Positions 23,084 to 49,207 of a stretch of 64,000 bases of DNA are shown piece by piece (position 1 is the first letter of the stretch; the number at the start of each line of letters is the position of its first letter). The DNA comes from Neoarius graeffei. Lineage: Eukaryota; Chordata; Actinopteri; Siluriformes; Ariidae. Position numbers and translations under genes: made by a program. The notes beneath the pieces are model-generated. The model made no database searches. It was not told the origin of the DNA and saw only the letters and a program-made list of their open reading frames with translations. The stretch is taken from contig NC_083578.1 in NCBI RefSeq assembly GCF_027579695.1, positions 5,932,460 through 5,996,459 of the forward strand. Reading direction: 5' to 3'.

Positions 23084-23088
23084 ACCAC

Positions 23089-23396
23089 TGTAACGGTTCA
23101 GTATTGGTGGGAGGAGCACAGAGGACGGCAGGACAGAGATCAGGTTCACAATAGCATTTATTGCTAGACTTTTCAGCTTAACAACGTTCCACACTCAAAC
23201 AGACACACACAACTGGCATCTTGTTCAGGGCTGAGCTCCTTCCGCTCTCGCTCTCCCTCCTGATATAGGGTGCGGTCACTGGGAAGACACACAAACACAG
23301 GTTAATTGCTCTCAGGTGTAGTGATTCTGCCACTTACCTTCCCTGACTCCGCCCTCCTGTCACAGACCGGCGCTTGACCACGCCCCCGCTGCCACA
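23089..23396 (-). repeat. Solo LTR of the Gmr1-like family
   Basis: A 308-bp TG...CA unit closely related to the LTRs at 28678 and 33292 (shared CAGGTGTAGTGATTCTGCCA and the downstream GC-rich end). It is flanked by a perfect 5-bp duplication ACCAC (23084-23088 and 23397-23401). No internal sequence adjoins, so it arose by LTR-LTR recombination. Confidence 0.92.
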
Positions 23397-26214: not shown

Positions 26215-27793
26215 TGTTTTCCCCAGAAAAAAATTAAAGCCCTAAATTCTGGCATGATAATACATAGACAATTGAGTGCCAAAGGCACAAAGCGAAACTA
26301 GGGGGGGTCCGGGGGCATGCCCCCCCGGAAAATCTTTTGAAAACAGGTGCTCTCAGGTGCATTTTCAGGGTCTCTGAGAGGTTTTAGATACATGATTATA
26401 GGACAGATTTTACCAGTGTTTCAATGATTTCTGACCTAAATAGTATTAATGTAGACACATTTGAAATTTCACCTTAAAGTTCAACATGCAAGTTAAACTG
26501 TTTTGTTATCGATTACTGAGGTCTACAATAGATTGAAAATCTACGGGGATCCCTTAATTATCTATGATCAAGTAGTGTTGTAATAAAAATGTGCATGAAA
26601 ATATGAACAGTGTTTTGCTCCATCTTATGCAATCCAGTGAAGAGAATCGATCATCATGACCTCCTGTTGATCACAAAGGGATCTGAACCTAAGACCTGCC
26701 ACCTTAAAATAAGTTGCTGTATTACTATAACTGTAATGATTTAGAATGTTTCTGATGCAATTACCATAATACCGGTATATGTATAACTAAGGTACACTGA
26801 AAAGAAAAGTAAGGCAACTGCATATTATAAAGTTTAAATTTTGGCACTTTATTAAATGGACTAGATTAAGATTAAAACATATTTAAAGGAAAAGAAAACT
26901 TAATTCATACATTTAAGTTTGCAGAAAGATTATGTACTTATAAACACATTCATGAAGAGAATTTGTTAATAAGTGTGAAATGTAGCATAAGTTTGAATAA
27001 TAATGATAAGCGTATTTGGCAGTGTGATGTCAATGTGAGCCTTTAACAAAAGAATAATCCAGAGCCGTCTTTTGTTAAATGGATCCCAGTGACATCACAC
27101 TGCCAAAAATACTAATGATTATTATTTGAAATGATGCTATATTTGACACATTTGGACAACTTCGCTTCATGAGAGTGTTTATAAGTACATAATCTTTCTG
27201 CAAACCCAAACTAATGAATTAAGTTTTCTACTCCTTTAAAGCAGATTAATTCTCCTTGGCTTTTGGCCCAATGTTGGGCAGCCCTCTCATAGTCCATCTC
27301 GCTGTCATCCATGCTGATGTGGATCAAATTGTCCAGCAAGTCTTCTCCTAGTTTATTAAAATCAGTTGGCTTTGTCTGTCTGGTGGGGGACAACATCGGC
27401 AGCCAACAAGATTGCTTGTAATGAATTGGAAAATTCCGGGATGTCTGACATTTTCTTTCGATATTTTTATTGGACGGTTTGAACACGTGATCTTGACGTA
27501 GCCATCAGATTACATTTTGTTTACATCATACCACGCGGACATATTACTTTGACAGAATCAACATAAACACTGGAAAAAAAAACAAAAAATGCTTGTTTAA
27601 CACAAATATCAATCAGTATGTAAATGGATCTGTTATTTGCTCTCCTATGTATCTAGTTACTTGTGGGTAGGAAATGTAACGTATCGGTATAAATCTAGGC
27701 GTATCGGATTTTAACTAAAGCGACTAAGCGTATTGGCAGGCAGAGCAAGCGGATCAGGCCCGATACGCTAAAACGCTTTGGGGAAAACCATGA
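26215..27793. mobile_element. hAT-like non-autonomous element
   Basis: The left end CAGTGTTTTCCCCA is mirrored by GGGGAAAACCATG at the right end. It contains a palindromic G/C stretch near 26306-26332 (GGGGGCATGCCCCC) and the foldback at 26882-27240. A clean 8-bp target duplication was not found. A minus-strand reading at 27211-27486 has no recognised domain. Confidence 0.5.
26882..27240. repeat. Long foldback (inverted repeat), 14-base loop
   Basis: Arms 26882-27053 and 27068-27240 are near-complementary over about 170 bp, from TTTAAAGGA at the outside to TTTAACAAAAGA at the inside. Transcribed, it would form a long hairpin. Confidence 0.85.
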
Positions 27794-27799
27794 GATAGG

Positions 27800-27876
27800 G
27801 ACCATATGTTCACTGAGGTAGTGTTGAAATTAACTCTTTAAGTGTTATATTAACACTGGTGATTTTACTGTGAAGT
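27800..27876. mobile_element. MITE with AACACT motifs, right part
   Basis: Short AT-rich end with TTATATTAACACTGG, adjoining the Tc1-like element X. Confidence 0.4.
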
Positions 27877-28677
27877 GATGAAGTGTTTCAGGTGTTATTT
27901 TTGTCCCATTCTTCCTGTAAACAGGTCTTAAAGTGTGTAACAGTTCGGGGTCATCATTGTCATGTTTTTCATTTCTAAATTCTCTACACATTCTCTATTG
28001 GGGACAGAGGGGACACGCCCTCTTCTTCCACAGCCAAGCCTTTGTAATGTGAGCAGAATGTGGTTTTGCATTGTCTTGTTGAAATTTCCCTGGAAAAGAC
28101 GTCGTCTTGTAGGCAGCAGATGTTGCTCCAAAATCTCAGTGTACTTTTCTGCATTAATGCTCCATCACAGAAGTGTAAGTTACCTTCGCCGAGGGCACTG
28201 ACCCAACCCCATACCATGACACACCCTGGTTTTTGGACTTGTTCCTGGTAACAGTCTGGATGGTCCTTTTCCTCTTTGGTTCTGATCACACGGTGTCCAT
28301 TTCTTACATAAAAGAACTGGAATATTGATACATCTGACCACAAAACCTGTTTCCACTGTGTGATGGTCCATCCCAGACACCTCCGAGCCCAGAGAAGCCG
28401 ATGGCACTTTTGAACACCGTTAACATAAGGCTTCCTTTTTGCACAGTGAAGTTTTAACTGGTGTTTGTGGATGTAACTCTGTATTGTAGCTTGATAAAGG
28501 TTTGGAAAAGTAATCCTGAACCCATGTGGTTCTATCAGCTGTAGATGAATGACAGTTCTTGATGCAGTGAGGGATCAGAGATCACGGGGGTTCAGATTAA
28601 GCTTGTGCCCTTTATACACCGAAATCCCTGCAGATTCCTTGAATCTTTTAATGATATTATGCACCGTAGAGGGTGAA
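27877..28677 (-). pseudogene. Tc1-like element X, transposase part 1
   Basis: The minus strand encodes Tc1 transposase blocks in shifting frames: WSDVSIFQ, RTKEEKDHPDCYQEQVQKP, VMVWGWVSALGEGNLH. Further right come helix-turn-helix-type sequence and the target of the Gmr1-like insertion (GTGAA, 28673-28677). The element resumes at 33610 and 46177. Several frameshifts make it inactive. The left terminus is missing. Confidence 0.8.
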
Positions 28678-28988
28678 TGTAACAGTTCTAATGAAGGGCT
28701 GGAGGACAGAGGACAGCAGGACAGAGATCAGGTTTGCAAATACGGCTTTTATTGCCACACTTTTCAGTGAAGAAATTTCCCACTCAGACATACATCAACA
28801 CACAACCGGCGTCTGGTTCGGGATGAGCTCCTCTGCTCTCTGCTCTCCCTCTTTAAATAGCGCACGGTCACTGGGAAGACACACACAAACAGGTTAATCG
28901 ACAACAGGTGTAGTGATTCTGCCACTTACCTTCCCTGACTCCGCCCTCCTGTCACAGACCGGCGCTTGGCCACGCCCCCGCTGCCACA
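28678..28988 (-). repeat. 3' LTR of the Gmr1-like element
   Basis: Begins TGTAACAGTTC and ends GCTGCCACA on the plus strand. Pairs with 33292-33604. Confidence 0.95.
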
Positions 28989-29735
28989 TACCCCCACCGC
29001 CCGACTCAGGCCGGGCGGCCATCCGGCCTGCAGCCGACTCCCCCCCCCTTGACGGGAGAGGAAGTCCGCCACGACCATCTGCGCCCCCGGCCTGTGGACC
29101 ACCTTGAAATTAAAGGGTTGGAGTGCCAGATTCCAACGGGTGATCCGCGTGTTGGCATCCTTCATACGGTGGAGCCACTGGAGGGGCGTGTGGTCTGAAC
29201 AGAGGGTGAAAGGGCGCCCCAGCAGGTAGTAACGGAGGGCGAGGACTGCCCACTTGATTGCCAGACACTCTTTTTCTATGGTGCTGTAGTGCCCCTCATG
29301 CACCGACAGCTTCCTGCTGATGTATAGGACTGGGCGGTCCTCCCCCTCTACCTCCTGGAACAAAACCGCCCCCAGCCCTCTGTCCGACACATCGGTCTGT
29401 AATATAAAGGGGAGAGAAAAGTCAGGGGAGAGTAAAAGTGGCCCCCCACACAGTGCGTCCTTTACCTCAGAAAAAGCCCGCTGGCATTGCTCTGTCCACT
29501 GGACCAGATCTGGTGCCCCCTTTTTAGTGAGATCAGTCAGCAGGCTGGTGACGTCCGAATAATTAGGTATAAACCGCGGATAATAGCCAGCCAGCCCCAG
29601 GAACTGTCTCACCCCCTTTTTGGTCTTGAGCCTCGGGCAGGCTGCAATTGCTGCAGTCTTGTTAATTTGGGGCCGCACCTGCCCGTTGCCCAAGTGGAAG
29701 CCCAGATACCGTACTTCCACCCGCCCAAATTGCAC
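28989..29735 (-). pseudogene. Gmr1-like reverse transcriptase thumb and RNase H
   Basis: The minus-strand reading has VRYLGFHLGNGQVRPQINK, a connection region (FLGLAGYYPRFIPNYS) and RNase H (LQTDVSDRGLGAVLFQ, YSTIEKECLAIKWAVLALRYY, CSDHTPLQWLHRM). It closes Pol just before the LTR. The reading enters after a frame change near 29735, so it is separated from the catalytic RT part. Confidence 0.88.
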
Positions 29736-29763
29736 ACTTCTTCGGGTTGGCTGTGAGACCCGC

Positions 29764-30231
29764 TCACCTCAGCGACCTAAGGACGGCCCTCAGATGTTCG
29801 ATATGCCTCGGCCAGTCATTACTGTAGATGATAATGTCATCAAGGTAGGCGGCCGCAAAGGTGGCATGGGGGCAGAGGACCCTGTCCATCAGCCGCTGAA
29901 ACGTAGCGGGCGCCCCAAACAGCCCGAACGGAAGTGTGACGAATTGGTGTAAACCAAACGGTGTGGAAAAGGCCGTTTTTTCTCGGGATAGTGGAGTCAA
30001 GGGGATCTGCCAATATCCCTTCGTCAAATCCAGTGTCGAATAAAAGCGAGCAGTGCCGAGTCGATCAAGCAGCTCATCAATACGAGGCATTGGGTACGCG
30101 TCGAATTTAGACACCGCGTTGACTTTTCTATAGTCCACACAGAACCGGACCGACCCGTCGGCCTTGGGTACCAAGACCACCGGGCTGCTCCAGTCACTGT
30201 GGGACTCCTCGACGATGCCCATTTCGAGCAT
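29764..30231 (-). pseudogene. Gmr1-like reverse transcriptase, catalytic part
   Basis: Contains VVLVPKADGSVRFCVDYRKV, FYSTLDLTKGYWQIPL, STPFGLHQFVTLPFG and the catalytic box AAYLDDIIIYS. It lies downstream of integrase in transcription order. A TGA stop ends it at about 29764. Upstream, a frame change in an A-run and a TAA near 30235-30265 cut it off from the integrase frame. Confidence 0.9.
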
Positions 30232-30239
30232 GGTCTCAA

Positions 30240-31271
30240 GTTATTCCTGAACCACCTTTTTTTGTGTTCAGGTAACCGGTAAGGGCGGCTACGTACTACC
30301 ACCCCCGGGGGCGTCTCTATGTGGTGCTCTATGAGGTTAGTTCGACCGGGCAGGGGCGAGAACACATCCGAAAACTCGGTCTGCAACTGGGCGACCTCCG
30401 TGAGTTGGGTCGGGGAGAGGTGGTCTCCACAGGGGACCGGAGAGGTATGTGATGCCAATGCCCCTTTTTGAACCTCCGGCCCCAGCTCCGCCTTCTCCGG
30501 AACCATCGACACCAACGCCACGGGGACCTCCTCATTCCAGAGTTTAAGCAGATTGAGGTGGTAAATCTGTAGTGCCCCACCCCTGTCCGTTCGCCTCACC
30601 TTGTAGTCGACGTCCCCGACTCGCCGTGTGACCTCAAAGGGTCCTTGCCACTTGGCGATCAATTTGGAGCTCGATGTGGGCAACAGTACGAGTACCTTAT
30701 CTCCCGGTGTGAACTCCCTAAGGCGCGTACCCTTGTTGTACAGGCGGGCTTGTCGTTCTTGGGCCTGCTGCAAATTCTCCTGGGTTAGGTGGGTGAGCGT
30801 GTGGAGTTTTGTGCGCAGGTCCATAACGTACTGAATTTCGTTCTTACTTTGTGAAGGTCCCTCCTCCCAATTTTCCCACAGCATGTCTAGAATGCCGTGC
30901 GGCTTATGCCCATATAATAATTCGAACGGGGAGAACCCCGTGGAGGCTTGGGGGACCTCTTGCACTGAAAACAACAAGGGCTCAAGCCACTTATCCCAAT
31001 TACATGCATCCTCACTTACAAATTTTTTAATGATATTTTTGAGGGTGCAATTGAACTGTTCCACTAAACCGTCCATTTGTGGGTGATAAACGCTGGTGCG
31101 GATCAGCTTAATCCCCAATAACCCATACAGTTCGCGCAGTGTCCGTGACATAAATGTGGTGCCTTGATCAGTCAGAATCTCTTTCGGGATTCCAACTCGG
31201 GAGATAACGCGGAAGAGCGCCTCTGCAATACTGCGTGCTGAGATATTGTGCAGAGGCACTGCTTCCGGGTA
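30240..31271 (-). pseudogene. Gmr1-like integrase core and C-terminal part
   Basis: The reading continues in the same frame as the gag-protease ORF after a single TGA at 31272-31274. It contains ILTDQGTTFMSRTLREL (second acidic residue), SVYHPQMDGLVEQFNCTLK (third, E) and the C-terminal region with TPGDKVLVLLP and KWQGPFEVTRR, then the start of RT. The TGA looks like a CGA-to-TGA change. Confidence 0.88.
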
Positions 31272-33245
31272 TCACGTTGCATAGTCCACCAGAACTAATA
31301 TAAAGCGGTACCCTCGTGCTGACCGATCTAATGGCCCGACGAGATCCATCCCAATCCTTTCGAACGGGGTCTCAATTAATGGTAGGGGGTGCAAAGGCGC
31401 TTTTGGAATGGCCGCTGAATTTACTAACTGGCATTCGCGGCACGCCGTACACCACCTACGACCATCGCCGCGAATCCCCGGCCAATAGAATCGGGCCATT
31501 ATTCGGGCTAGTGTCTTATCCTGCCCTAAGTGTCCAGCCATGGGATTAAAGTGAGCCGCCTGGAATACCAATTCCCGGCGGCTCTTTGGAATTAAAAGTT
31601 GCATGACTTGCTCTTTAGTTTGAGTGTCCTGCGTCACTCGGTATAACCTATCCTTCATAATCGCGAAGTAGGGGAAGGACGGGGTGGCGTTCGGCTGGAG
31701 CGTTTGACCATCAATTACTCTGACTTGGTCAAACGCATGTCGCAGAGTCTCGTCTCGCGATTGCTCTAATGGGAAATCTGTGAGGGATTCCCCAATAGAG
31801 AGAGGAGGGGCCGGTGGCTCCTCACTCTGACGTGGAGATGACGTAGATGGCTCTGTGACAGCTGCTTTCGCCAAAGCGACACTGGGACCTCCCCCTGTTA
31901 AATGGCAGGACCCACTCTTTACTAAGCGTGTCATTAAATCCCGAAATCCCAGCCAATCAGTCCCCAAAATTAAAGAGTGGGTAAGGCGAGGATTAACCGC
32001 CGCCTTCACTATAAATTTTTCCCCTCTGAAAAAAATGTGGACCGACACCAAAGGGTAGCTGTGAACGTCCCCGTGCACACACAACATCTTCGCCCCCTGT
32101 GCTCCCCCCAATGCCTCGATTTGCACCAGGCTTTGGTGAATTGAAGTCTGATTACAACCCGAATCCACCAACGCCTGATATGTATCCTCTTGAATACTCA
32201 CCGGTATGCGATACGCTCCGGCCCGATCGAGGGCGGCTCCTGGCACATCGGGGATCTGAACCACCGTGCCCACCTCCATGACTGTGCACTGTTGTTGGAG
32301 GTGGCCCGGCTCCCCGCAGTGCCAGCAAACCGGCCTGGGCTTCCTCTCCGCACCGGTGTTCTGGGGCTCACTCATCTGAGGGGGGGAAGAGACAGACACA
32401 GAAGGGAGAAACGGGAGGGCACCGCGGGTGCGGCGGGCCGGCACTGGCGCCGGCCCCCGCCTCCGCTGTGGGGGAATGGGGCGAGGACAAGACACAGGAG
32501 GAGAGAGAGAGAGAGAAGAGGAGAGAAGAGAAGAGGCTGTCTGCTGTACTGCCGCCGGGACAGCTGCCATATGGTCCTCCGCCAGCTCGACTGCCTGATC
32601 CAGCGACGCCGGGCGGTGGCACTGGACCCATGCCGCGGTTCCCGCTGGCAAGCGTGCGATGAACTGCTCCAGCACCACCTGGTCGATGATCCCCTCGGCG
32701 TCGCGGTTGTTGGCCCTCAACCACCGCCAGCAGGCGTCCCGGAGTTGCTGGCCGAACGCGAACGGCCGGCCGACTTCCTCCAAGCACAAAGCGCGGAAGC
32801 TCTGATGCTGCTGTTCAGGGGTGCGCCCCACACGCTGGACGATGGCCCGGTGAAGGTCCGCGTAGGCCAGCCAGCGGTCGGTGGGGAGCTGTAGCGCGGC
32901 CAGCTGCGCCTCTCCCGTTAGCAGGGGGAGGAGGCGCGCCATGTGCTGCTCCATCGGCCACCCCGAGGTCTCCGCGACTTGCTTGAAGAGGGTGATGAAT
33001 GCCTCGGGGTCGTCCTGTGGGCCCATCTTTGTTAGGGTGAGGGGGGACTGGCCCGCGGTGGGAGCGTTGGTGGACCCCGCCGACGCGCGGAGGTGCCGGA
33101 AAACCTGTCGATCTTCTTGTTGGGCCAACACCAGGGCCTCGAACCGCTGTTCTTGCTCCTTTTGGAGGGTGAGTAGCACCTGGTGCTGGCTTTGCTGGGC
33201 CGTGGCGAGGGCGTGGACCAGTTCAGCGAACGGGGAGGACTCCAT
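31272..33245 (-). pseudogene. Gmr1-like Gag (SCAN-like capsid), protease and start of integrase
   Basis: A 657-codon reading from an ATG 46 bp inside the 5' LTR. Residues 1-60 are predicted coiled coil. Residues about 80-230 are a capsid whose second half (QHHQ-like QQHQSFRAL, RPFAFGQQLRDACWRWL, DQVVLEQFIARLP, WVQCHRP, AVELAEDHM) resembles the vertebrate SCAN domain. A CCHC knuckle (C307, C310, H315, C320) follows, then protease with DSG at 361-363, and the integrase zinc domain (H...H in AAHFNPMAGHLG, CTACREC) near 575-615. The reading stops at a TGA within the integrase core (VLVDYAT). Confidence 0.92.
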
Positions 33246-33291
33246 GGGGCTGTTAGGCTGCTGTGCTCCAGATCCTGGGTTTTGGCACCAC

Positions 33292-33604
33292 TGTAACAGT
33301 TCTAATGAAGGGGTGGAGCACAGAGGATGGCAGGACAGAGATCAGGTTTGCAAATACGGCTTTTATTGCCATACTTTTCAGTGAACAAATTTCCCACTCA
33401 GACATACATCAACACACAACCGGCATCTGGTTCGGGATGAGCTCCTCTGCTCTCTGCTCTCCCTCTTTAAATAGGGTGCAGTCACTGGGAAGACACACAC
33501 AAACACAGGTTAATCGACAACAGGTGTAGTGATTCTGCCACTTACCTTCCCTGACTCCGCCCTCCTGTCACAGACCGGCGCTTGGCCATGCCCCTGCTGC
33601 CACA
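33292..33604 (-). repeat. 5' LTR of the Gmr1-like element
   Basis: Pairs with 28678-28988. TG...CA ends; TATA-like TTTAAATAG inside. Confidence 0.95.
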
Positions 33605-33905
33605 GTGAAATATCCAAATCCCTTCCTATCTTTCTTTGAGGAACATTGTTTTAAACATTTCAATAATGTTCTCATGCAGTTGTTGACAAACTGAAGATCC
33701 TCAGCCCATCTTCACTCCTCAAAGACTAGGGCTTTCCTGGATACTGATTTTGTACCAAGTCATTATTCCAATCACCTGCTGACATCACCTGTTTCACATC
33801 ACATCATTATTTAATTGTTTTACCTCATTACTCACCCTAAATTACCCCATCCAAACTTTTTTGGAATGTGTTGCAGGTGTGAAACACAGGAATAGCTGTA
33901 TATTA
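33605..33905 (-). mobile_element. Tc1-like element X, part 2
   Basis: Continues X after the Gmr1-like insertion (N-terminal transposase region, then 5' non-coding sequence) and stops at the TA where element P inserted (33904-33905). Joined mentally to 28677 and 46177, the sequence is continuous. Confidence 0.75.
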
Positions 33906-34491
33906 CAGTTTTTTTTTTTACAATTGCTTACACACTAAAATGAAAACTTTCCAACAGTTAGCAAAACCTTACACTCAAGGAGCAAAACACCAGCCCAGAT
34001 TTGCACAACTGTAAGCACATTGTCAGCTTCACACTTTTTGCAAAACACTACACACAGTGATTTGCAAAACACTAAACACACTTGTATACATTTGACACAG
34101 ATATTTATTATGATGTCATTTCTTTGCAATTTCAAAGCAAAAGCTTTCAAATGAACACACCCATGAACCAATTGGTTAAACACAGCCACCAGGTGTGCAC
34201 ACACACGTGCTTAATTGTAGTCACACCAATCAGGTTTAAACACTATAAAAAGGCAACAGGTAAGTTCACTTGTTTTCATCAAAAATGGACGGTGTCAGAG
34301 GAAGAGGGAGAGTGCGGATGAGAGGGGGAATCCAGAGAGAACAAGGTGGAGGAAGAGGTAGAAGAAGGCCTGGAGGAGGGGTTGGACATGCACAAAGAAG
34401 AAGACAACCAAATCTGTCTAATGAAATTCGTGCTACACTTGTGGACCATGTAATAAACTACGGGCTAACACTGAGGGAGGCTGGACTGAGA
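33906..34491 (+). mobile_element. IS630/Tc1-type element P, left part with exon 1
   Basis: The terminus CAGTTTTTTTTTTTACAATTGCTTA lies next to the TA. After a non-coding region rich in GCAAAAC motifs comes an ATG at 34285 that opens exon 1, a basic Arg/Gly-rich start followed by a helix-turn-helix-like segment (NEIRATLVDHVINYGLTLREAG). The exon is cut by LINE D at about 34491 and resumes at 44454. Confidence 0.8.
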
Positions 34492-34959
34492 GTACATATC
34501 TGTTTAGTCAAGTCTTTTGTTAATGGTGTTTATGAGGTAAAGGTGTAGATATGGAGGGTCCTCAGACAGAGTGCCTTGGTAAACTGGGATGTATGGATGC
34601 TGTCAGTCCCCCACTCACTCGAGTTTGTTGACGGTCTAGTGGCTGCTGCTTTATGTCCCAGGGCTCTGTTCCCTTCTGGCTCTCCCCTTTTAGTTATGCT
34701 GTCATAGTTAGTTGCCGGAGTCCCTGCTTGTACTCCGTGCAATATGTATACTGTTCCTACTTATTCAGGTGACATTAGGCATACCTAACAACCTGTGTTC
34801 CCCCCCCCACCACCAGTCTGTCCCTCTGAGTTACATGTCGGTCCTGGGATCGAGATGCTGACCTCTTCTGCTCCTCGGACCTGCCTGATCCATCCTGGTG
34901 CCCTGTGTCTGGTTGGAGTCTCATCGCATCGCTCCTGTGGAGGATGGCCCCATGTGGAC
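34492..34959 (+). mobile_element. L2-like LINE D, part 1 (end of ORF2 and 3' UTR)
   Basis: Begins in the last ORF2 codons and continues in the 3' UTR shared with LINE C (compare 37490-38345 on the minus strand). Contains a C-run at 34801-34808. It ends in the hAT target ATGTGGAC (34952-34959). Confidence 0.8.
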
Positions 34960-36630
34960 CAGTGGCGGCTGGTAGTCTTTCAAACAGGGGAGGCTGGTCA
35001 GTTACGATATTTCCATATTTTAAAAGAAAAAAGAAAAAACACATCAATTTTGCCCATACTCTTGCCTCTGATCTGGCTGATTGTTGGCAGGGTCACAAAC
35101 TGTGAAATAACAGGTTCTTTTGGCCCATTAGCCTATTGTCCAATATACATGATGGTGGTGTTGGGGGGTATATTTTAACATTTTGTATTTTAAAATTGTG
35201 GCATGTTGTTTAAAAATTGATCATTACTGAAAGCAGCTCTTTGTCAGGAACCTCAGCAGTAACAGCAGAGTGTTCTGGAATAGGCACAAGCACTGACCTT
35301 GGGGAGCCAAACATAGAGCTGGGTGCCACACATTTCATTCAATGACACTTTCCCTATATTTTACTTATTTTGACTGAGAAATGTTTTATTGACAATTTTG
35401 ATAACCCTTCACTTTTAATCCAGGTCTGTAGTGTGAAATGTTCTCGGCTGTGTTTTTGTTTAAAAATGTTTTCCAAATTGTAGCTGTGTTTAATTCATAT
35501 CCAGAAAAAATATATTCCAATATAATATACTCAGCATAAACATTTTAAATAGATTCTATATTTTTGGTCCATCCATGACATATTACTAAAGTAGCCTGTT
35601 TACTGTTGTTGATGTGGGTCACTTGCTGTTAGCCAATTCACTTTCTCATACCAGGAGAGCTGAAAGGAACGAGTATTATTCCCTACCTTTTTCACCAAGT
35701 CAATTTGAGGCGTTGGTCTACCCTGCTCTTTAATTTTAATTTTTCCTCGAAAGGAAGACTGGCAAATGGCTTCGCCAAAATTACATCAGCAATGCTTGGC
35801 ATCCGTGTGCACCTTTCTTGCTAGCTGACTAGCCCCCTCAAGTTCAAGTTCAGTCACTCAAATAAGCAAAATTTCTGGAACTAAGATAGCAAACTTGACA
35901 ACACTATTTACACTTTATTTACAATGAAAATATATACAAACTAAAAAAGCTGGTAGAAACCGTATGTAATGAATGAAATCAAAATGTAAGCTGATCTCTT
36001 ACAATACACCACAGCACTTGCGATTCCGCATGGGACTGAACTGAAATTCACCGCTGCCTGTCTATAGTTGAAACAAGCTGTCAATCAAAGAAAATATCCG
36101 GCCGCTTTCACCAATCACCAGTCTCCTCGCGGAAACTGCCATGTCCCTACCACTGTGAGGCTGGGAGTCCGTGGGCGGGCATTTTCACAGTATTTGTCCA
36201 ATAACCATCTTGCATTTTGAGATTGATAAGCACATAGCTCCCAAATGCCGTTGAAGTCCACTGAGGCTGGGAGTCCATGAGACTCCGTGGGTGGGCATTT
36301 TCGCAGCATTTGTCCAATAACCATTTTGCATTTTGAGATTGAAAAGCGCATAGCTCCCAAATGCCATTGAAGTCCACTGAGGCTGGGCTGCATCGCGCTA
36401 TCACAAGGGGGAAGAACTCACGCACACATTAGGCGAACTGGGGAAAGTTATAACGGAATGGTTTCGCACTGTAGTTGGGTTGAGCACATATATTTCTATG
36501 ATTCTGGATCTGAAATAGCAATGTTATAAGGTCGGCTATAACATAAGCCTAGCGCAATTCATCCTACATGATGTTCATCATTTTTAGAGGAGGCTGAGCC
36601 TCCCTCGTTGTCTTAAAGCAATCGCCCGTG
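34960..36630 (+). mobile_element. hAT-type non-autonomous element inside LINE D
   Basis: Starts CAGTGGCGGCTGG and ends AGCAATCGCCCGTG. A perfect 8-bp target duplication ATGTGGAC lies at 34952-34959 and 36631-36638. No transposase ORF. It includes a tandem duplication at 36157-36388. Confidence 0.92.
36157..36388 (+). repeat. Tandem duplication of ~110 bp
   Basis: Two units (about 36157-36262 and 36263-36378) begin GAGGCTGGGAGTCC, and a third begins at 36379. The second unit has an insertion of about 10 bases. Confidence 0.85.
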
Positions 36631-36735
36631 ATGTGGACAGTTGGGGGTCATGCCTGGAGGACGCTCTGGACTCTTGCAGTGGTACTTTTGTGGTTGGGGA
36701 CTTTAGTTGACTTTCGGACTGCAGTTGACTTGCTG
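36631..36735 (+). mobile_element. LINE D, part 2 (3' UTR)
   Basis: Resumes the 3' UTR after the hAT element and ends with TTGACTTGCTG, which is the SINE target (36725-36735). Confidence 0.75.
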
Positions 36736-37000
36736 GGAGGCGAAGTGGCCAAGTGGTTAGAGTGCTTGACCACTAAGCGAACGGTCCCCGGTTTGAGCCT
36801 CGGCTCGACGGGGATCTGGGGCTCGCTCCCTGTCCACCCAGCAGTGAATGGGGACCTGGTGGAAACACTGGGGGAAGGAAGGCGGCGAGGAAAGGAACTG
36901 GCCACCCTACCTCACTATGCCGATGGCCCAGGACAAGTGCGCTCTCTAACAGGCACTCCCCCAATGTATGAATCGTATATGGGACCCTCTCTTCTTCTTC
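36736..37000 (+). mobile_element. Second tRNA-derived SINE family
   Basis: The head (GGAGGCGAAGTGGCCAAGTG, then GGTTTGAGCC) resembles a Ser/Leu-type tRNA with A and B boxes. The body is unlike the Mermaid-type SINE. It ends in CTT repeats. A perfect 11-bp target duplication TTGACTTGCTG lies at 36725-36735 and 37001-37011. Confidence 0.92.
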
Positions 37001-37054
37001 TTGACTTGCTGACTTTAGGACTGCAGTTGACTTGCTGACTTGAGGACTGCAGTT
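37001..37054 (+). mobile_element. LINE D, part 3
   Basis: Short 3' UTR piece with GACTTGCTGACTT repeats, ending with GCAGTT (37049-37054), the target of LINE C. Confidence 0.65.
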
Positions 37055-38344
37055 AAGTCAAGTCAAGTTTATTTGTATAGCACTTTCAACAATAAACATT
37101 GTCGCAAAGCAGCTTTACAGAATTTGAACAACTTAAAACATGAGCTAATTTTATCCCTAATCTATCCCCAATGAGCAAGCCTGCAGCAACAGTGGCAAGG
37201 AAAAACTCCCTCAGACGACATGAGGAAGAAACCTCAAGAGGAACCAGACTCAAAAGGGAACCCATCCTCATTTGGGCAACAACAGACAGCATGACTATAA
37301 TATTAACAGTTTTAACATAAAGACAGTTTCTTTGATGTTATAAACTCTTCATTGATGGAAACTTGAGTGCAAAACTGTTCATGACAACTGCAGTCCTAAA
37401 GTTAGCAAGTCAGCTGTGGTCCTCAGCCATAAAAGCATTACTGTATGATTCCAGAGCATCCTCCAGGTGTAACTTTCAACTGTCCTCATGGGGCCATCCT
37501 CCACAGGAGCGATGTGATGAGACTCCAACCAGACACAGGGCACCAGGATGAATCAAGCAGGTCTGAGGGGCAGAAGAGGTCAGCATCTTGATCCCAGGAC
37601 CGACATGTAACTCAGAGGGACAGATTGGGGGGGGGGGGGGGGGGGGAGAGAAAAACACAGGTTGTTAGGTATGCCCTAAAAATGACACAAGTATTAAGTC
37701 TGTGTGGCAGGCTCGCAGAGATGAGAATCTTGACATCAGGCATAATACACAACAATGGCATGTTAATATGGTAGAAAAATATCATGACCTGCTCTGGCTG
37801 GATGCTTGATTAGGTGATGGGAGCACAATCCTCAGCAATGATGGGATGCAGATGGGACCCTTAGGGCTGGCCAAGACAATTCAGTTACATTTCACAGGGT
37901 CTGGGACATGCAACAGAATGTCTGACGGCTGATTCCCTGCAGGCTACGATAGTCAGTCGAGGTCTCCACCCTGTCCACCAAAAGATTTCCTGTTGACTGC
38001 ATGTAACTCAGAGGGACAGATTTCGGGGGAGAGAGAGAGAGGGAAAGAAAATACAGGTTGTTAGGTATGCCCAATGTCACCTGAGTAAGTAGGAGCAGTA
38101 TACATATTGCACTGAGTACAAGCAGGGACTCCAGCAACTAACTATGACAGCATAACTAAAAGGGGAGAGCCAGAAGGTAACACAGGCATGAGGGAGCCCC
38201 AGGACATAAAGCAGCCAGCCACTACACCGTCAACAAACTTGAGTGAGCAAGCAAGTGGGGACTGACAGCATCCATACATCCCAGTTTACCAAAACACTCT
38301 GTCTGAGGACCCTCCAGATCTACACCTTTACCTCATAAACACCA

Positions 38345-39103
38345 TTAACAAAAGGCTTGACTAAATAGATATGTTTTCAGCCGAGACTTAAACGCTGAGA
38401 CTGTGTCTGATTCCCGAACATTACTTGGAAGGATGTTCCATAACTGTGGGGCTTTGTAAGAAAAGGCTCCGCCCCCTGATGTAGCCTTCACTATATGAGG
38501 TACCAGCAGATAGCCTGCACCTTTTGATCTAAGTAGGCGTGGCGGGTCATAGAGGAGAAGAAGTTCACTCAGGCACTGTGGTGCGAGACCATTTAGTGCT
38601 TTAAAGGTCAATAGTGGTATTTTATAATCAATACGAAATTTGATTGGGAGCCAATGCAGTGTGGATAAGACAGGCGTGATGTGGTCATATTTTCTAGTTC
38701 TAGTAAGGACTCTTGCTGCTGCATTTTGAACTAACTGGAGCTTGTTTATGCACTTATTGGAACATCCAGACAGTAAGGCATTACAATAATCCAACCTGGA
38801 GGTAACGAAAGCATGAACTAGTTTTTCCGCGTCATGTAGTGACATTAAATTTCTTATCTTAGCAATATTTCTGAGATGAAAGAAAGCTATCCGGGTAATG
38901 TTATCAATGTGAGTTTTGAATGAAAGACTGGGGTCAATAATCACCCCGAGGTCTTTTACTGCTGCACGTGAAGAAACAGAAAGGCCATCCAGAGTCACTG
39001 TGTAATCAGAAAACTTACTTCTAGCTGCATGTGGTCCGAGTACAAGTACTTCAGTCTTGTCAGAGTTAAGCAGAAGGAAATTACATTTTTTTCTGATTGA
39101 TTA
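38345..39103 (-). pseudogene. LINE C ORF2, C-terminal part
   Basis: Contains the segment after the catalytic box (LGVIIDPSLSFKTHIDNITR, SRLDYCNALLSG, LVQNAAARVLTRTRKYDHIT, LHWLPIKFRIDYK) to the C-terminus SQAFC. The reading is open from the start of the thumb onwards. The missing piece between it and the catalytic part is where Q inserted. Confidence 0.85.
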
Positions 39104-41272
39104 GGCACAATTTTTGAAACCTTTGGCTATTTTTGCAAAACTCTTCACACAAATCGCAAAACATTACATCCAATTCACCAAACATCATAGATTACTTGCA
39201 AAAGCAAACACTTTTTGCTAAACTGTTAACACTCTTTTCAAAATGGTATTTTTGTACACAACAGTACACACAACGCATAACATTAATAAGCACACGAAGC
39301 AACAACTGAACACTGACAGTAAGAATGGAAAACACATCTGGCTTTTGCTTTCTCTGTGCATAAGGTAGTCTGTCAGTTTGAGATCATACTTTTTGGTCAT
39401 AGTTCTGTAAACACACAGGGATCCAAATTTCAAGTATTTTCAAGTATTTTTATTCAAGGGGTTTACTGTATTTGCTGTAAACACATCAAAACAAACATAA
39501 GTGATGTGTTTTTACATACAGTTATTCACAGAGAGAAAAAAAACAGTCGTGTCGTCTCTCTGGGTCCGGCCACAAGATTTCGTCAACATCGCATGCAATG
39601 TCTTCAAGTCCAAGGCACCGAGGAAAATACCTACTGGAGTGCCGTATCCAGGCCTGACATGACACCTGGTCAATATCCCCACATGCCTCCTCCATTGCCT
39701 GTAAAAGGGCTATACGTTGATGGGGATGACAGTCATAGACCTTCCAGCGCCAGGCAGAGAAGAACTCTTCGATAGGGTTCAAGAAGGGAGAGTATGAGGG
39801 GATGTAGAGTAAAGCGAAGAGTGGGTGATCTGTAAACCATTTGCAGACCAAAGCAGCCCTATGGAAATGAACATTGTCCAATATGATGACATACCTGGTG
39901 TGCTCTGGTCTCTGAACATTAGTGAACATGTGATGTAAGGTGTCCAGGAATGTAATAATGTGTGCAGTGTTATATGGGCCCAGGGTTGCATGATGGTGAA
40001 CAACACCATTTTGACTTATAGCTGCACACAGAGTTATGTTGCCACCACATTGTCCTGGGACATTGACTATGGCATGGTGTCCAATAATGTTCCTGCCATG
40101 TCTCCTCATTTTAGTAAGGTTGAAACCTGCCTCATCTACAAAAATCAGCTCATGACCCATGGCATCTGCATCTAGCTCCATCACTCTCTGGAAAAGACAA
40201 AACAAATTCAGCATAGCAGGCCCAAGCACAGCACTACAGAATGTACTTCCAGATCCAGCACCAATGATACTATAGCTTACCTGCACATATTCATATCGCA
40301 GTTGTTTTACATGTTCACTGTTTCTTTCAAAAAGGACTCTGTAGATTTGTTTCATTCTGATTCTGCTGCGGGCAAGTACACGAGACAATACAGAAATGCT
40401 CACACTGTTTATGTCTTGAAAGGTGGTGTCATCCTCTATTATGCGCTGTTGTATTTCTCATAGTCTTATGGAATTATTTGCAATGACCATATTGACTATA
40501 TGAGTCTCCTGTTCTGCAGTGAACATTCTTCCTCTGCCCCCAGCTGCTGGATGTCTAGCAATTCTGTAAAGTAACAATTTCAGTATTTTTACATGCATGG
40601 TCTTCTTGTGTTTCTCATTAGAGTATGGCAGTGCTACAAAACTTAGTGTAAAGTGACTGTACTAACCGATTCTCATTTTGAAATGTCCTTATGATGCTCG
40701 CTACAGCGTAGCGGCTCAAGTTAGGCTGAACCCGTTGGCCAGCTTTCTTCAAGGTCATTCCATGGTTGATAACATGGTCCACTATTGTAGCTCTGATGTC
40801 ATCAGTAATTCTATTTCTTACTCTCCTTCCTCCTTCACCTCCACGTCCTCTTCCTCAACCTCCTCTAATTCTCACTCTTCTCACTCTTCCTGCTCCCTCC
40901 ATTATACTCCACACCGACAGCTTACCTGTGGCTTATTTATAGTGCTCAGGCTGATTGCAACGTGAACTAATTATCTAAAACTGTTTTCACATGTGACAGT
41001 GTGGCCAGACAGTTGGCCAAATAGTGTAAATAATAGCCATAAATGTGTATAGTTTTGCTAGGAGTGTGTTGGAAATTTGGAAATTGAGTGTAAAGCAGTG
41101 AGTTGTGTTTACAGTTCTGCAAAAGGTGTGCTCTGCAGTGGATTGTACTTACACTTTTGCAAAGTGTGTGTTACAAAATTACAAACTCCGTGCAAAGCAG
41201 TGTTTGTGCTTTTAGTTTTGCGAACTCAGTGAGTGGTTTTGCGATAGATATTACTAGTTTTAGAAATTGTGC
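39104..41272 (-). mobile_element. IS630/Tc1-type element Q (same family as P)
   Basis: TIRs of about 16 bp (GCACAATTTTTGAAAC left, GCACAATTTCTAAAAC from the right) beside TA on both sides (39102-39103 and 41273-41274), inserted within LINE C ORF2. It carries a three-exon transposase on the minus strand. The flanks contain many GCAAAAC motifs as in P. Confidence 0.88.
39522..40902 (-). pseudogene. Intron-bearing IS630/Tc1-type transposase (DD35E)
   Basis: Exon 1 (40902-40667) codes for a basic start and a helix-turn-helix-like region (VDHVINHGMTLKKAGQR). Exon 2 (40563-40282) codes for the second DNA-binding part. Exon 3 (40187-39522) codes for the catalytic domain. Donors GTTAGT and GTAAGC and acceptors TTTACAG and CTTTTCCAG fit. 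The catalytic residues are D in FVDEAGFNL, D in VIILDNVHFH and E in FLNPIEEFF, with 35 residues between the last two. TGA stops occur in exon 1 (Arg/Gly-rich part) and exon 2 (40458-40460). Otherwise the frame is open. It would cut and paste its own element at TA. Confidence 0.85.
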
Positions 41273-42041
41273 TACAAGAATCATCGTTAGAGTTTAAGCA
41301 TTCAGAAAAAACTGTTATAAGCATCCAGTGTCTCATGTCCTTTACACATTCCTCAATTCTATTAAGCTGGTGTCTCTCATCAGGTTTTGCAGAAACATAC
41401 AACTGTGTGTCATCAGCGTAACAGTGGAAACTAATACAATGTTTACGAATAATATCACCCAGAGGGAACATATATAAAGTAAAAAGCAGTGGACCCAAGA
41501 CAGAACCTTGTGGAACACTAAACTTTACCTCAGTATGTCTAGAAATATCACCATTTATATCAACATACTGATAACGATCAGTTAAATAAGAGCTGAGCCA
41601 GGAGAGGGCCATTCCCTTAACTCCCACAACATTTTCTAGTCTATCCAGAAGAATGGAATGATCAATGGTATCAAATGCTGCACTAAGGTCAAGCAACACA
41701 AGCAGTGAGACACAGCCCTGATCAGACGCCAACAGTAGGTCGTTTACTACTTTAACCAGTGCTGTCTCTGTGCTATGATGAGGTCTAAATCCTGACTGAT
41801 ACATTTCATGGATGTAATTCCTATGTGAATATGAGCATAACTGCTGTGCCACAGCTTTTTCAAGGATCTTGGAGATAAAGGGGAGGTTTGATATTGGCCG
41901 ATAATTGGACAGTTGACAGGGATCAAGGTCAGGTTTTTTAATCAGGGGTTTGATAACTGCTAGTTTAAAGGATTTGGGTACAAAACCAATCCTAATAGAA
42001 TAATTTATTATTTTTAGAAGTGGTTCAACTACTTCAGGCAT
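41226..42041 (-). pseudogene. LINE C reverse transcriptase, catalytic part
   Basis: Contains NYRPISNLPFISKILEK, GFRPHHSTETALVKV, LLVLLDLSAAFDTIDH, SVPQGSVLGPLLFTLYM and the catalytic box YADDTQLYV, typical of L2/CR1-type LINEs. The last residues of the reading lie in transposon Q, which splits the ORF at 41272. Confidence 0.9.
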
Positions 42042-42255
42042 TATCTGTTTGAATAGTTGTGTAGGTAAGGGATTTAGTACGCAAGTTGAGGCTTTTGATG
42101 CCGAGATTAATGAAAGTAATTCAGTTTCTTTAAGGGGAGTAAAACATTCTAATTGATGATCTGATACAGTTATATTGTTAACTACAAGGTCACTTTTATT
42201 GTCTGACCTTAAATTAGTAGTTTGAATTTTTTGTCGGATATTCTCAATTTTGTCA

Positions 42256-43110
42256 TTAAAAAAAAATCATGAAATCGTTGCTACTACATACTACAGGTGT
42301 GCATGTGTCTATAGTGGACTTATTCCTGGTTAATTTTGCTACAGTATTAAATAGGAATCTAGGATTATTTTTGTTACCTTCTATTAGGGAGGAGAGATAT
42401 GTTGATCTCGCAGCACTAAGAGCTTTTCTATACTTCAGGAAACTCTCCTTCCATGCTAATTTGAACGCTACCAATTTTGTTTGACGCCATTTACATTCCA
42501 ATTTTCGAGTGGTCTGTTTTAAAGTGCGAGTATCATCATTATACCAGGGTGCTAATTTTTTGTCTCTGACCATTTTCCTTTTAAGAGGAGCTACATTATC
42601 TAAAGTATGGCGGAATGTTGACTCTAAGCATTCAGTTGCCTGATCGAGTTCTGCAGGGGCTGACAGTGACCCAATCAAAGTTGATAACTCTGGGAGATAA
42701 TTTATAAAGCTCTGTGCAGTATTTGACGTGAATGTACGTTTAATACAGTAGCGTGGTGAGGTGCATATATTATTACTCAGACATAGTTTGAATGAGATGA
42801 GATAATGATCTGAGATAACTTCAGACTGTGGAAGTGTGACTATATTGTCTACGTTTAACCTGAATGTTAGTATTAGATCGAGGGTGTGACCACCATTATG
42901 GGTCGGTCCTATGACATTCTGCTTAATCCCGACTGAATCTAAGATGGACACAAACACTGTTTTTAAAGGGTCTTCTGGGTTATCGAAGTGAATATTAAAA
43001 TCTGCGACAACTAAAGCTTTGTCTAAGGAAATAACCAGATCTGAGATAAAATCTGCAAATTCAGAAAGAAACTCAGAATATGGCCCCGGGGGCCTGTAAA
43101 TAATAAGCAA
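42256..43110 (-). pseudogene. LINE C endonuclease end and ORF2 linker
   Basis: Holds the C-terminal half of an apurinic-type endonuclease (LVVADFNIHFDNP, GHTLDLILTF, EVISDHYLISF) and the linker towards RT. The frame is lost in an A-run at 42258-42266. Confidence 0.85.
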
Positions 43111-43119
43111 TGGAATTAA

Positions 43120-43557
43120 CTAGGTAGACCTATTTTTCGAGGCTACATACATTATATGAGTATGAAGAACTTCAAATGTATTAAATTTATAACCAGGTTT
43201 TTGTGTTACACCTAGATAATCATTATAGATAACCGTGACGCCTCCTCCTCTGCCAGTTAGACGAGGCTGGTGTATATAACTGTATCCAGGAGGACTCGCT
43301 TCATTTAATGCTATATATTCATTTGGCTTAATCCATGTTTCAGTTAAACACAGTACATTAAACTCCTGATCAGTGATGAGTTCATTAACCATTAGCACTT
43401 TTGATGTAAGAGATCTAATATTTAATAGCCCCAACTTTAGATCAAAGGTGCTGGCAGCAGCTGTACAGTCAGTCTGATCTAATTTTATATTGATTAGGTT
43501 ACTGGAACAAACTCTCTGAATATTTCTACCTTTTTGTTGAGCTCGGGGAACAGACAC
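43120..43557 (-). pseudogene. LINE C endonuclease, N-terminal half
   Basis: Contains LGLLNIRSLTSKVLMVNELI, VLCLTETWIKP and GRGGGVTVIY, the N-terminal blocks of the LINE endonuclease. A frame change at about 43115 separates it from the rest. Confidence 0.85.
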
Positions 43558-43653
43558 AGTCTCGATGTAGTGGACCCTGAGTGACGACTCTGTGCAGCTA
43601 GCAGACAGTCGGTTTAGCCTGTTCGTCTGCTCCCTGGCCTTGGCTCTGGATTG

Positions 43654-44058
43654 TCAGCAATTAACTAGGCCTGTCCTGAGACTATGACCTATGCTGCAGG
43701 AAATGAGAGCAGCACCTTCCCGAGTGGGATGGATACCATCCCGCCCTAACAGGCCAGCAGTGCCCTCAAAATTAGCCCAATTATCTATAAAGCCCACACT
43801 GTTTTCAGAGCACCACCTGGACAGCCAGTAGTTCAGTGACCATAACCTGCTGTAAGCTACATCGCCACGCCGCATTGGGATGGGGCCAGAGCATACTACA
43901 GCATCGGACATCGCCTTCGCTAATTTAAACACCTCTACAAAGTTACTCTTAGTAACCTCAGACTGACGAAGGCGTATATCATGAGCTCCCGCATGGATAA
44001 CTATCTTTGAGAACCTGTGCTTGCCTAGGACCCTAAGATTACCTGCTATGTCCGGCAC
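43654..44058 (-). pseudogene. LINE C ORF1 esterase-like (SGNH) domain
   Basis: A 134-codon reading with FSKIVIHAGAHDIRLRQSEV, CSGPIPMRRGDVAYSRL and LLGRDGIHPTREGAAL, resembling the GxxD and DxxH blocks of SGNH hydrolase domains found in ORF1 of some L2/CR1-type LINEs. It lies immediately 5' of the endonuclease. The N-terminal part is lost by truncation at 44086. Confidence 0.7.
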
Positions 44059-44086
44059 CCTGGCTCCCGGTATACACCTGACTAAA

Positions 44087-44453
44087 GCAGTTGACTAGCT
44101 GACTTCAGGACTGCAGTTGTCGTGAACGATTTTGCACTCGGGTTTCCGTCGGTGGGGGGTTTATAGCATCAACAAAGCTGACTTTATGTTAGCACTGTTA
44201 ATGTTATCGTCATGTTGTCTGTTGTTGCCCAAATGAGGATGGGTTCCCTTTTGAGTCTGGTTCCTCTCGAGGTTTCTTCCTCCTGTCATCTGAGGGAATT
44301 TTTCCTTGCCACCGTCACCACAGGCTTGCTCATTTGGGATAAATTAGGGATAAAATTAGCTCATATTTTAAGTTGTTCAAATTCTGTAAAGCTGCTTTGC
44401 GACAATGTTTATTGTTAAAAGCGCTATACAAATAAACTTGACTTGACTAACCT
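44087..44453 (+). mobile_element. LINE D, part 4 (3' end and tail)
   Basis: Continues the D 3' UTR after LINE C and ends with AAATAAACTTGACTTGAC. The same 3' end is seen inverted at 37055-37290 in C. Confidence 0.82.
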
Positions 44454-46176
44454 AAGCAGGTACATGGTGGCATCAATAGTTCAGACATTTCATCAATAGC
44501 ACAGGTGAGAAACTTATCTTCTGTCAACAGACTGCTTTACTGCATGTACTATATCAACAGTTTTGGTATCTATTCCTGTATCATTCTCCAGTAAGCTACA
44601 TGTATTTTGTTTGGCCTACATAGGATTGAATGTTGAACACCAAGGAGGGAGGGGCCCCATATTCACTCAGGAGCAAGAGAGAGAGAGAGAGAGATCATAA
44701 ACCTTGTTTTGACCAATAATGCAATCAGACTTGGAGAAATTCAAATCCATATTGTCAGTGATCACACAATTTTCAATAATGTCCAACAGGTCTCTGTTAA
44801 CAATGGCTTGTATCCTTAAAAAGCATCAAGTTCTGAGAGCATTGCACTGTATAGAGTGCCATTTGAAAGAAATTCAGACAGGGTGAAAGTCCTGTGGCAT
44901 GAATATGTGGAGGTAAGTTTTGTTCACTGACTGACTGTAGTGTTGTGTACTGCACACATAACCTTTTTACTATACATGTAATTTTACTGTATAGCAGACC
45001 TACAGTATATTGATCTACACAATGTGATCTTTTGCTGTATTTCAGAGAGTTTTGCAAATGGATGCAGAGGAAGTCCTGCATGAGTTTATATACATTGATG
45101 AGGCTGGAGTTAATCTGACAACAGTGAGAAGGGGAAGAACCATCATTGGCCACAGGACTATTGTCAATGTACCAGGGCAACGTGGGGGTAACATTACACT
45201 TTGTTCTGCCATTACACAGAATGGGGTCCTCCACCGCCATGCCAACTTGGGTCCTTACAACACTGACCGCATTCTTACATTTTTAGACAGATTACACAAT
45301 ATTATCACAGCAGCGAGCCAAAGGGACCAGATGCAATATGTTGTCGTCTGGGACAATGTACCAGTATCTGTCCATCGTTCTGCTCTGGTCCAAAACTGGT
45401 TTCATCAACACCCACAATTTATAGTTCAATACCTTCCACCATACTCCCCCTTCCTAAACCCCATTGGGGAGTTCTTCTCAGCATGGCAGTGGAAGGTTTA
45501 TGATCTCCAGCCCTATGTCCAGACGCCCCCTCATTCAAGCTATGGAGGAAGCATGTGATCAGATTGATGCAGCATCAATACAAGGGTGGATTCATCACTC
45601 CAGAAGATTCTTCCCACGTTGCCTTGCAAATGAAAATATAGCTTGTGATGTTGACGAGGCCCTGTGGCCAGATCCAGCTAGGCGGAGAGATGTTTATTTA
45701 TTTATTTTTTCAGTACTGAACTGGATATGTATTTTAGTGTTACAGTACTACTGTAAGCTTACAGTACAATGGTACATTCAGTAATACTGTATGAAAACTG
45801 GAAAATGTTTTGTTATGAATGTTCTGTTAATGTTCAGTATTGACTGACTTGAGTATATGAAAATAAATATTTTCATTTAGTCTGCACAACTGGTGTCATG
45901 TAGTGTTGGTGAATTTATTTTTACACTTTCTCTGTGTAAATGCTAAAAGTGTTTTAGGTTGAGCACAGGAGGGTTTAACTGATTCAAACAGAATCAGATC
46001 ATATGATGGACGTTTGTTATGACAAGAATATAGGGGTTTTATAAGAAATTGTACTATAGTTTTGACTAAAGTGTTCCATTTTGCAAAGGATCTGAGGTGT
46101 TGTGCTAATTGTGTGAAGTGTTTTGAAAAACCAGGCCCTGTTTTCAAAATTTTGCTTAAGCAATTGAAGAAAACCA
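44454..46176 (+). pseudogene. IS630/Tc1-type element P, right part with transposase exons
   Basis: Continues exon 1 (to 44513, donor GTGAGA). Exon 2 runs 44624-44912 and contains a (GA)n run that disturbs the frame. Exon 3 starts at 45046 after a TTTCAG acceptor, with YIDEAGVNLTTV (D), VVVWDNVPV (D) and PFLNPIGEFF, where glycine replaces the catalytic glutamate. Two extra residues lie between the second D and that position compared with Q. A frame change near 45515 follows. The right terminus, inverse of TGGTTTTCTTCAATTGCTTA, ends at 46176 beside TA. Inactive. Confidence 0.82.
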
Positions 46177-46338
46177 TAACAAATGAAGTTGACCAACAAA
46201 ACATGAGATATCTTGGGTTCATTCTGTCTGCAATGAAATACAAGTCAAAGTACGTTTAGAAATCACTGCATTCTTTTTTTTTTTTATTTGCATTTTCCAT
46301 ACCGTCCCAACTTTTCCTGATTTGGGGTTGTATCATTA
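46177..46338 (-). mobile_element. Tc1-like element X, part 3 with right terminus
   Basis: Ends in TTTGGGGTTGTA, the inverse of the common TACAACCCCAA terminus of this fish Tc1-like family. Completes the interrupted element begun at 27877. Confidence 0.75.
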
Positions 46339-47279: not shown

Positions 47280-47801
47280 TGCTCGCCAGCCAATCAGAGC
47301 GCAGGATTTGATGGAAACTGGACCATGAAAAAAAAATTTCAGTGTAATAAAAATTTTCATTGTCATTTCTATAGTTTAAACTCATAATACATGTTGTTCG
47401 TATTATTGATGCTACAGCTATATACAGTTAGGTCCATATATATTTGGACACGACACAAATTTTGTTTTTTTACCTGTTTACTGAAACATATTCAAGTTAT
47501 AGTTATATAATGGACATAAAGTCCAGACTTTCAGCTTTCATTTGAGGGTATCCACATTAAAATTGGATGAAGGGTTTAGGAGTTTAGGAGTTAGCTCCTT
47601 AACATGTGCCACCCTGCTTTTAAAGGGACCAAAAGTAATTGGACAATTGACTCAAAGGCTATTTCATGGGCAGGTGTGGGAAATTCCTTCGTTATGTCAT
47701 TCTCAATTAGATAAGATAAGATAAGAGGCCTGGAGTTGATTTGAGGTGTGGTGCTTGCATTTGGAAGATTTTGCTGTGAAGAAAACATGTGGTTAAAGGA
47801 G

Positions 47802-49088: not shown

Positions 49089-49095
49089 AAAGGAG

Positions 49096-49207
49096 CTCTC
49101 CATGCAGGTGAAACAAGCCATCCTTAAGCTGCGAAAACAGAAAAAAACCCATCTGAGAAATTGCTACAATATTAGGAGTGGCAAAATCTACAGTTTGGTA
49201 CATCCTG

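Follow-up and report, generated by a model that had tools for sequence, protein, structure and literature searches.

The order in which mobile elements entered a genome can be read from which element interrupts which, and the cited accounts of Transpositions-in-Transpositions (TinT) and of the interruption matrix order element activity in this way (PMC3014933; PMC5657132). The cited passages on autoinsertion in plant retrotransposons with long terminal repeats (LTRs) describe a preference for relatives as targets and a weak preference for palindromes, with coding regions not commonly targeted (PMC6911290). For Traveler (DD35E) Tc1/mariner transposons, the termini are given as CAGTC or CAGCC in 74 of 78 elements, the other four being without the motif in the text cited (PMC7093834), and a SCAN domain is recorded in over half of frog Gmr elements in the part of the source cited here (PMC4131045). 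Large genomes commonly contain nested stacks, and there is an established method for reading them. We describe one such stack in a 64,000-nucleotide stretch of Neoarius graeffei DNA (C10:5932460-5996459, in a 2.34-Gb genome), referred to here as the window, which holds about 18 kb of mobile elements, each inside another. The likeness to TinT and interruption-matrix chronology is that order comes from interruptions; the difference, as far as the cited accounts go, is that a single locus is read here, with a duplicate of the segment as the pre-insertion site. The value of the locus lies in this duplicate, apparently made part-way through the history, which supplies empty sites and makes nesting, empty sites, and divergence comparable in one place. 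With a probability of about 0.93, we read the locus as mobile elements piled one inside another: a Tc1-like element (X), then a transposon (P), then a long interspersed nuclear element (LINE; D), then the duplication, and then five later insertions.

Two elements interrupt the outermost layer, X (27873-46338): a Gmr1-like LTR retrotransposon and P (33906-46176). Within P lies D (34497-44446), and D is split by a hAT element, by a short interspersed nuclear element (SINE), and by an antisense LINE, C (37055-44086), which is itself split by the transposon Q. Pfam places DDE_3 in P and Q, RVT_1 in C, and SCAN, protease, integrase, and reverse transcriptase (RT) domains in the Gmr1-like element. 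Target-site duplications are clear for the Gmr1-like element, the hAT, and P, mutated for Q, within tandem repeats for the SINE and C, and absent for D. An earlier note on this DNA, made from the sequence alone, had listed junctions and target duplications and had read the stack as nested insertions with a recoverable order. These features are present in the sequence, with the qualifications that X has no left end, that D has no duplication, and that the duplications of the SINE and C lie within a 26-bp repeat.

The earlier note had proposed closing the inserts and aligning the flanks with intact family copies, and the joints P in X, D in P, and Q in C all passed. Intact X reads ATATTAACAAATG (L003, L006, L007) or ATATTAACACATG (L004, L008), while in the window P sits between ATATTA and TAACAAATG, its target being the TA within an intact TTAA. 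This joint aligns continuously in five of the six X copies examined, and the sixth (L005) fails to align across it. Intact P reads GAGAGTACAGCCTAACC, and D stands in place of its GC, its 5′ joint showing a loss of 2 bp and a 3-bp match; because D replaces this GC, it made no target duplication. Four P copies (L041, L042, L049, L050) cross the joint, and L048 aligns on one side only. Three of seven C copies were printed across the Q site. Intact C reads GGAAATTAATAAGC in L055 and L056, with one base different in L054, and the right TA of the window Q is now TT. The insertions of P into X at TA, of D into P, and of Q into C at TA thus stand as the note had them. Among Q copies with flanks recognized by a fixed pattern, the left flank ends in TTA in 14/15 and the right begins with TAA in 13/15, one of the two exceptions being the window Q itself; in the window at large, T precedes TA in about a third of cases.

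A duplicate of the segment, 93-95% identical to the window, lies about 106 kb downstream. L002, fetched as a copy of X, matches the window past X on both sides, and together with L039 it covers the whole duplicated segment. The duplicate carries X, P, and D. It runs unbroken through the Gmr1 site, with one GTGAC, and through the hAT site, with one ATGTGGAC, and its D is uninterrupted where the window has the SINE, C, and Q. The duplications GTGAA and ATGTGGAC are strong because each is single in the duplicate (the first as GTGAC), which confirms the splitting of X by the Gmr1-like element and of D by the hAT. The duplications TTGACTTGCTG of the SINE and GCAGTT of C are present, as claimed, but are weak by themselves because they lie inside the 26-bp tandem repeat of D (36703-36735, 37001-37054, 44091-44116), which counts about four units in the window, compared with about one in the duplicate, and which holds both elements; there, it is the uninterrupted D of the duplicate that provides the continuity. 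From the content of the duplicate and its empty sites, X, P, and D therefore came before the duplication and the other five insertions after it. On this comparison, P is also placed before the Gmr1-like element, an order not obtainable from nesting alone. Furthermore, P and the P of the duplicate share 33 derived sites of 2084 (15.8 per kb), 2.9 times the next highest family pair (5.5 per kb), and because this sharing is so far above the next pair, P predates the duplication.

Table 1. Layers of the stack and the duplicated segment, in window coordinates.
Feature	Position	Strand	Basis
X, Tc1-like DNA transposon, first piece, left end missing	27873..28677	-	genome copies, breakpoint
Gmr1-like LTR retrotransposon	28678..33604	-	LTRs 28678-28988 and 33292-33604; target duplication GTGAA; empty site in duplicate
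X, second piece	33605..33905	-	alignment with L003, L004, L006, L008
P, IS630/Tc1-mariner-type transposon, 5′ piece with exon 1	33906..34496	+	P copies L041, L042, L044, L046/L050, L049
D, LINE, 5′-truncated, first piece	34497..34959	+	inverted match to C; joint to P; ends in hAT target ATGTGGAC
Non-autonomous hAT, 1671 bp	34960..36630	.	target duplication 34952-34959 / 36631-36638; empty site in duplicate
D, second piece with start of 26-bp repeats	36631..36735	+	inverted match to C; duplicate
SINE, 265 bp	36736..37000	+	duplication TTGACTTGCTG inside repeats of D; 39 other scored copies
D, third piece, 26-bp repeat units	37001..37054	+	inverted match to C; duplicate
C, LINE, 3′ piece, antisense to D	37055..39083	-	C copies L054-L060
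Q, IS630/Tc1-mariner-type transposon, at least 20 loci	39084..41314	-	TA target in TTAA; ends set by other Q loci; DDE_3
C, LINE, 5′ piece	41315..44086	-	RVT_1; closed Q site; GCAGTT (6 bp) at 37049-37054 and 44087-44092
D, 3′ end piece	44087..44446	+	inverted match to 37052-37416; joint to P
P, 3′ piece with DDE exon	44447..46176	+	P copies; DDE_3
X, last piece with remaining inverted repeat	46177..46338	-	alignment with X copies
Duplicated segment	27310..49624	.	at C10:6066402-6078743, without Gmr1-like element, hAT, SINE, C, Q

The divergence between the window and the duplicate is 0.041 by the Kimura two-parameter (K2P) distance (5364 sites), and that between the two LTRs is 0.043, with an error of about 0.011 (311 sites). 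At non-CpG sites, the window and the duplicate differ by 2.76%, or 1.38% per lineage, and the LTRs by 8/287, or 1.4% per lineage. The non-CpG divergence of P from its family is 49/2137 (2.3%) and that of Q is 18/2034 (0.9%); the own branch of Q is shorter still because it shares 18 derived sites of 2135 with a copy on C22. For C against its relatives, the value is 59/2907 (2.0%), and its seven relatives give 1.3-2.0%. D differs by 5.0% between the window and the duplicate (715 sites). By these alignments, the divergences mostly agree with the insertion order, and nesting order, empty sites, and divergence agree except for a fast LINE clock. C is the discordant value, and it would fit only if LINE sequence diverges faster; such a clock, as seen in D, would remove the conflict without proving the explanation.

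How was the stack built? Very probably, a truncated Tc1-like X received P at TTAA, P received the 5′-truncated D, and duplication of the segment followed. The later changes were confined to the window copy: the Gmr1-like element entered X, the hAT entered D, and the 26-bp repeat of D grew and took in the SINE and C; Q then entered C at TTAA. Every step is an ordinary cut-and-paste or copy-and-paste insertion. The nesting, the closed sites, the empty sites of the duplicate, and the relative divergences are direct observations. We infer growth of the repeat in the window rather than shrinkage in the duplicate, and five true gains rather than losses from the duplicate; absolute times, and any order among the Gmr1-like element, hAT, SINE, and C, are inferred in the same way.

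Several observations weigh against this history. The missing left end of X and the absence of a target duplication for D mean that not all joints are textbook, and they might suggest separate fragments joined by rearrangement. However, the sites of P, D, and Q can each be closed on intact copies, and the duplicate has empty Gmr1 and hAT sites; the closed sites X/P, P/D, and C/Q rule such fragments out, and we give this reading almost no weight. The alignments confirm the 18-kb stack and show that its layers were inserted one within another. The other points concern the clocks. The LTR divergence is, in nominal terms, at least as large as that of the duplication, although the two are within error, and divergence from the majority base includes subfamily differences. 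C looks older than the duplication on a pooled clock, yet it is absent from the duplicate. Could the duplicate instead have lost the Gmr1-like element, hAT, SINE, C, and Q, which would make its empty sites uninformative on order? It does lack window positions 44415-44610, and hAT and Q-type elements can excise. However, an LTR element and a LINE would not be expected to leave so precisely that single target sites are restored; moreover, the Gmr1 divergence is about equal to that of the duplication and the Q divergence is below it. We consider such losses very improbable. Insertion after the duplication is thus preferred for all five. The locus belongs to a known kind, of which it is a well-documented case, and the history in the earlier note is largely right, with P before the Gmr1-like element as an addition.

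The note had also treated P and Q as one family, with activity on both sides of two LINE insertions. As worded, this does not hold. The coding DNA of P and Q is 59.5-65.7% identical (75.6% over 78 bp at one end), and their DDE regions are 61% identical over 158 amino acids. The DNA values are below the identity of about 80% that we take to be the customary rule for one family, and a single family is ruled out. P and Q are, on these identities, two families of one clade, and continued activity is the right description at the level of that clade. Each encodes a DDE_3 transposase, with introns assigned by eye from frame and GT/AG. The P family has eight loci, including the window and the duplicate; the main pieces of the other six are 85-94% identical, followed by a step to about 70% for other families. 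The Q family has at least 20 loci, including the window, with most pieces 94-99% identical and the lowest 89%, and many copies are split. A protein search for the P/Q clade gave 21,787 first-look candidates, 150 of which were scored, so the clade may be very large. In part of the literature searches, none of the titles listed had a bearing on this locus or on the P/Q clade.

Q is similar to Traveler in its TA duplication and in the 35 residues, counted by eye, between the second D and the E. However, its termini are CAGTTTTTTCTG, ending in CAGTT and not in the CAGTC or CAGCC of the cited description. It is 2.2 kb long, compared with 1,072-2,191 bp in the cited passage for intact Traveler of ray-finned fish (PMC7093834), and it has apparent introns. 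The comparison covered the target duplication, residue spacing, termini, length, and introns.

Q lies within the remains of P, and relatives also occur at other Q loci. When Q and P were masked, the fetched stretches (78,896 free bases) showed a different, diverged transposase gene from the clade at 7 of the 19 other Q loci, while 147,268 control bases held none. The Q loci were represented by 29 stretches with 1.5-kb flanks, which overlap, so the 78,896 bases count some DNA twice. The controls were nine stretches of six P loci, six of X, seven of C, the window, L039, and L052, and they are unmatched in place or kind. Protein queries were used; in an earlier search, many hits were to a common repeat inside R, the relative at C5 and C11 (45 hits, 26 sources), and these hits were set aside by eye. 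The weakest of the seven matches is at L018 (E = 3.5e-5). At C5, C11, and C2, Q interrupts the coding region of the relative. At L015 (C2:127275334-127278289), Q interrupts the DDE exon of another clade member, whose amino-acid identity to P and Q is 56-66%. At C5 (L013, 96171295-96173458) and C11 (L024 and L034, 53703887-53717337), Q occupies one shared TTAA of R in opposite orientations. R differs between these loci by 153/2179 (7.0%; six of seven same-strand alignment pieces of at least 86%, the seventh, in a common repeat, being excluded), whereas Q differs by 54/1834 (2.9%), with one shared derived site of 1834. A single insertion carried along by R is ruled out by these values, and there were therefore two independent Q insertions. 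R contains four TTAA, with the Q site itself omitted since the joined R flanks are without part of the target site.

Do Q-type elements then prefer to insert into or near their relatives, and is this why Q lies within P? The relatives at 7 of 19 loci, the three interrupted coding regions, and the twice-used TTAA point that way. However, the association was spotted after the fact, the control loci are largely LINE or X sequence, and the clade is possibly very common. If all 21,787 candidates were real, about 0.7 relatives would be expected in the Q stretches. Furthermore, Q and R cluster at 1 Mb, with seven pairs compared with 0.38 expected (from four Q loci, two being the Q-in-R cases; the positions of Q, R, and P for the clustering and the locus counts were entered by hand), so a shared environment rich in transposable elements may suffice, and regional accumulation is a serious rival. 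In the window, moreover, Q is in C and not directly in P. We therefore regard this explanation of the window Q as doubtful. The general form, that a low-copy Q family integrates preferentially into or beside diverged clade relatives, sometimes at the same TTAA, with kin serving as landing pads, would be a little more doubtful still. The kin association is suggestive, its controls are imperfect, and it is the only possibly new point here. The likeness to autoinsertion, as that is described in the passages cited above, is the preference for relatives as targets; the difference is that a cut-and-paste transposon here enters other families of its clade, three times in coding sequence. If the Q association held genome-wide, autoinsertion would extend to a vertebrate cut-and-paste transposon.

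Nesting at other loci runs in other directions. The same hAT family splits three Q copies (L018/L031, L020/L027, L022/L025), with 8-bp duplications, the Q copy at C11 (L034) has a LINE of the C family in one of its gaps, and a Gmr1-like element at C15 (L014) contains Q. The activity periods of these families therefore overlapped, and nesting at a single locus orders insertions, not families.

The genome DNA searches scored at most 40 candidates per query, so copy numbers are lower bounds. For X, the 40 scored of 7354 candidates are 87-100% identical, with the window X included, and the match of the window X to other copies starts at 27873 (27877 in the earlier note). Its full length was checked in two copies, L006 and L007, in which X extends about 280-300 bp further to a second inverted repeat, where the window has unrelated DNA. 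When the remainder of X was sought leftward, the strong matches fell on the inverted repeat already known, except for two of 19-20 bp. The Tc1 assignment is weak, the Tc3_2 helix-turn-helix being below the Pfam cut-off. The Gmr1-like element has GTGAA on both sides and an LTR pair that is 95% identical. Its Pfam domain order is SCAN and protease, then integrase, then RT, and on the minus strand Integrase_H2C2 and rve precede RVT_1; the rve and gag-asp_proteas matches score under their cut-offs. Integrase ahead of RT is what we take to be the mark of Gmr1, and the likeness to Gmr1-type Ty3/Gypsy elements, lies in this order and in the SCAN domain. An LTR-like stretch at 23084-23396 is 85% identical to these LTRs.

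The hAT has the 8-bp duplication and short inverted ends, CAGTGGCG / CACGGGCG. All 40 scored of 4893 candidates match, with the window hAT included, and among genome copies extending to the right end, most terminate at query 1668-1675. For the SINE, 40 of 969 candidates were scored, and the other 39 show 98-99% identity along almost the whole element; no SINE copy was found in the other fetched loci. Box-like motifs were seen in it by eye, and neither ARAGORN nor Rfam gave a match for a tRNA-like head. For C, 40 of 4621 candidates were scored, and the 39 others are 96-97% identical. C and D belong to one LINE family and are 89-96% alike in long matches.

The P of the duplicate (L039, C10:6069845-6073601) has been interrupted separately by an insert of about 3.75 kb; the ends of this insert are hAT-like, and one of its frames resembles a BED zinc finger by eye. 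Window positions 47801-49085 are absent from the duplicate and overlap LINE reading frames (48151-49123); this is probably another post-duplication insertion, outside the stack. In the next 10 kb past the duplicate, matches of at least 100 bp (E up to 1e-20) are only to the Gmr1-like element and to a further LTR-like stretch. Directly after the duplicated segment lies another Gmr1-like element (L052:1-4822, C10:6079001-6083822), 87.5% identical and inverted. Near the left edge of the duplicated segment in the window, a long inverted repeat (26869-27253) has two 183-nt arms that are 79% identical.

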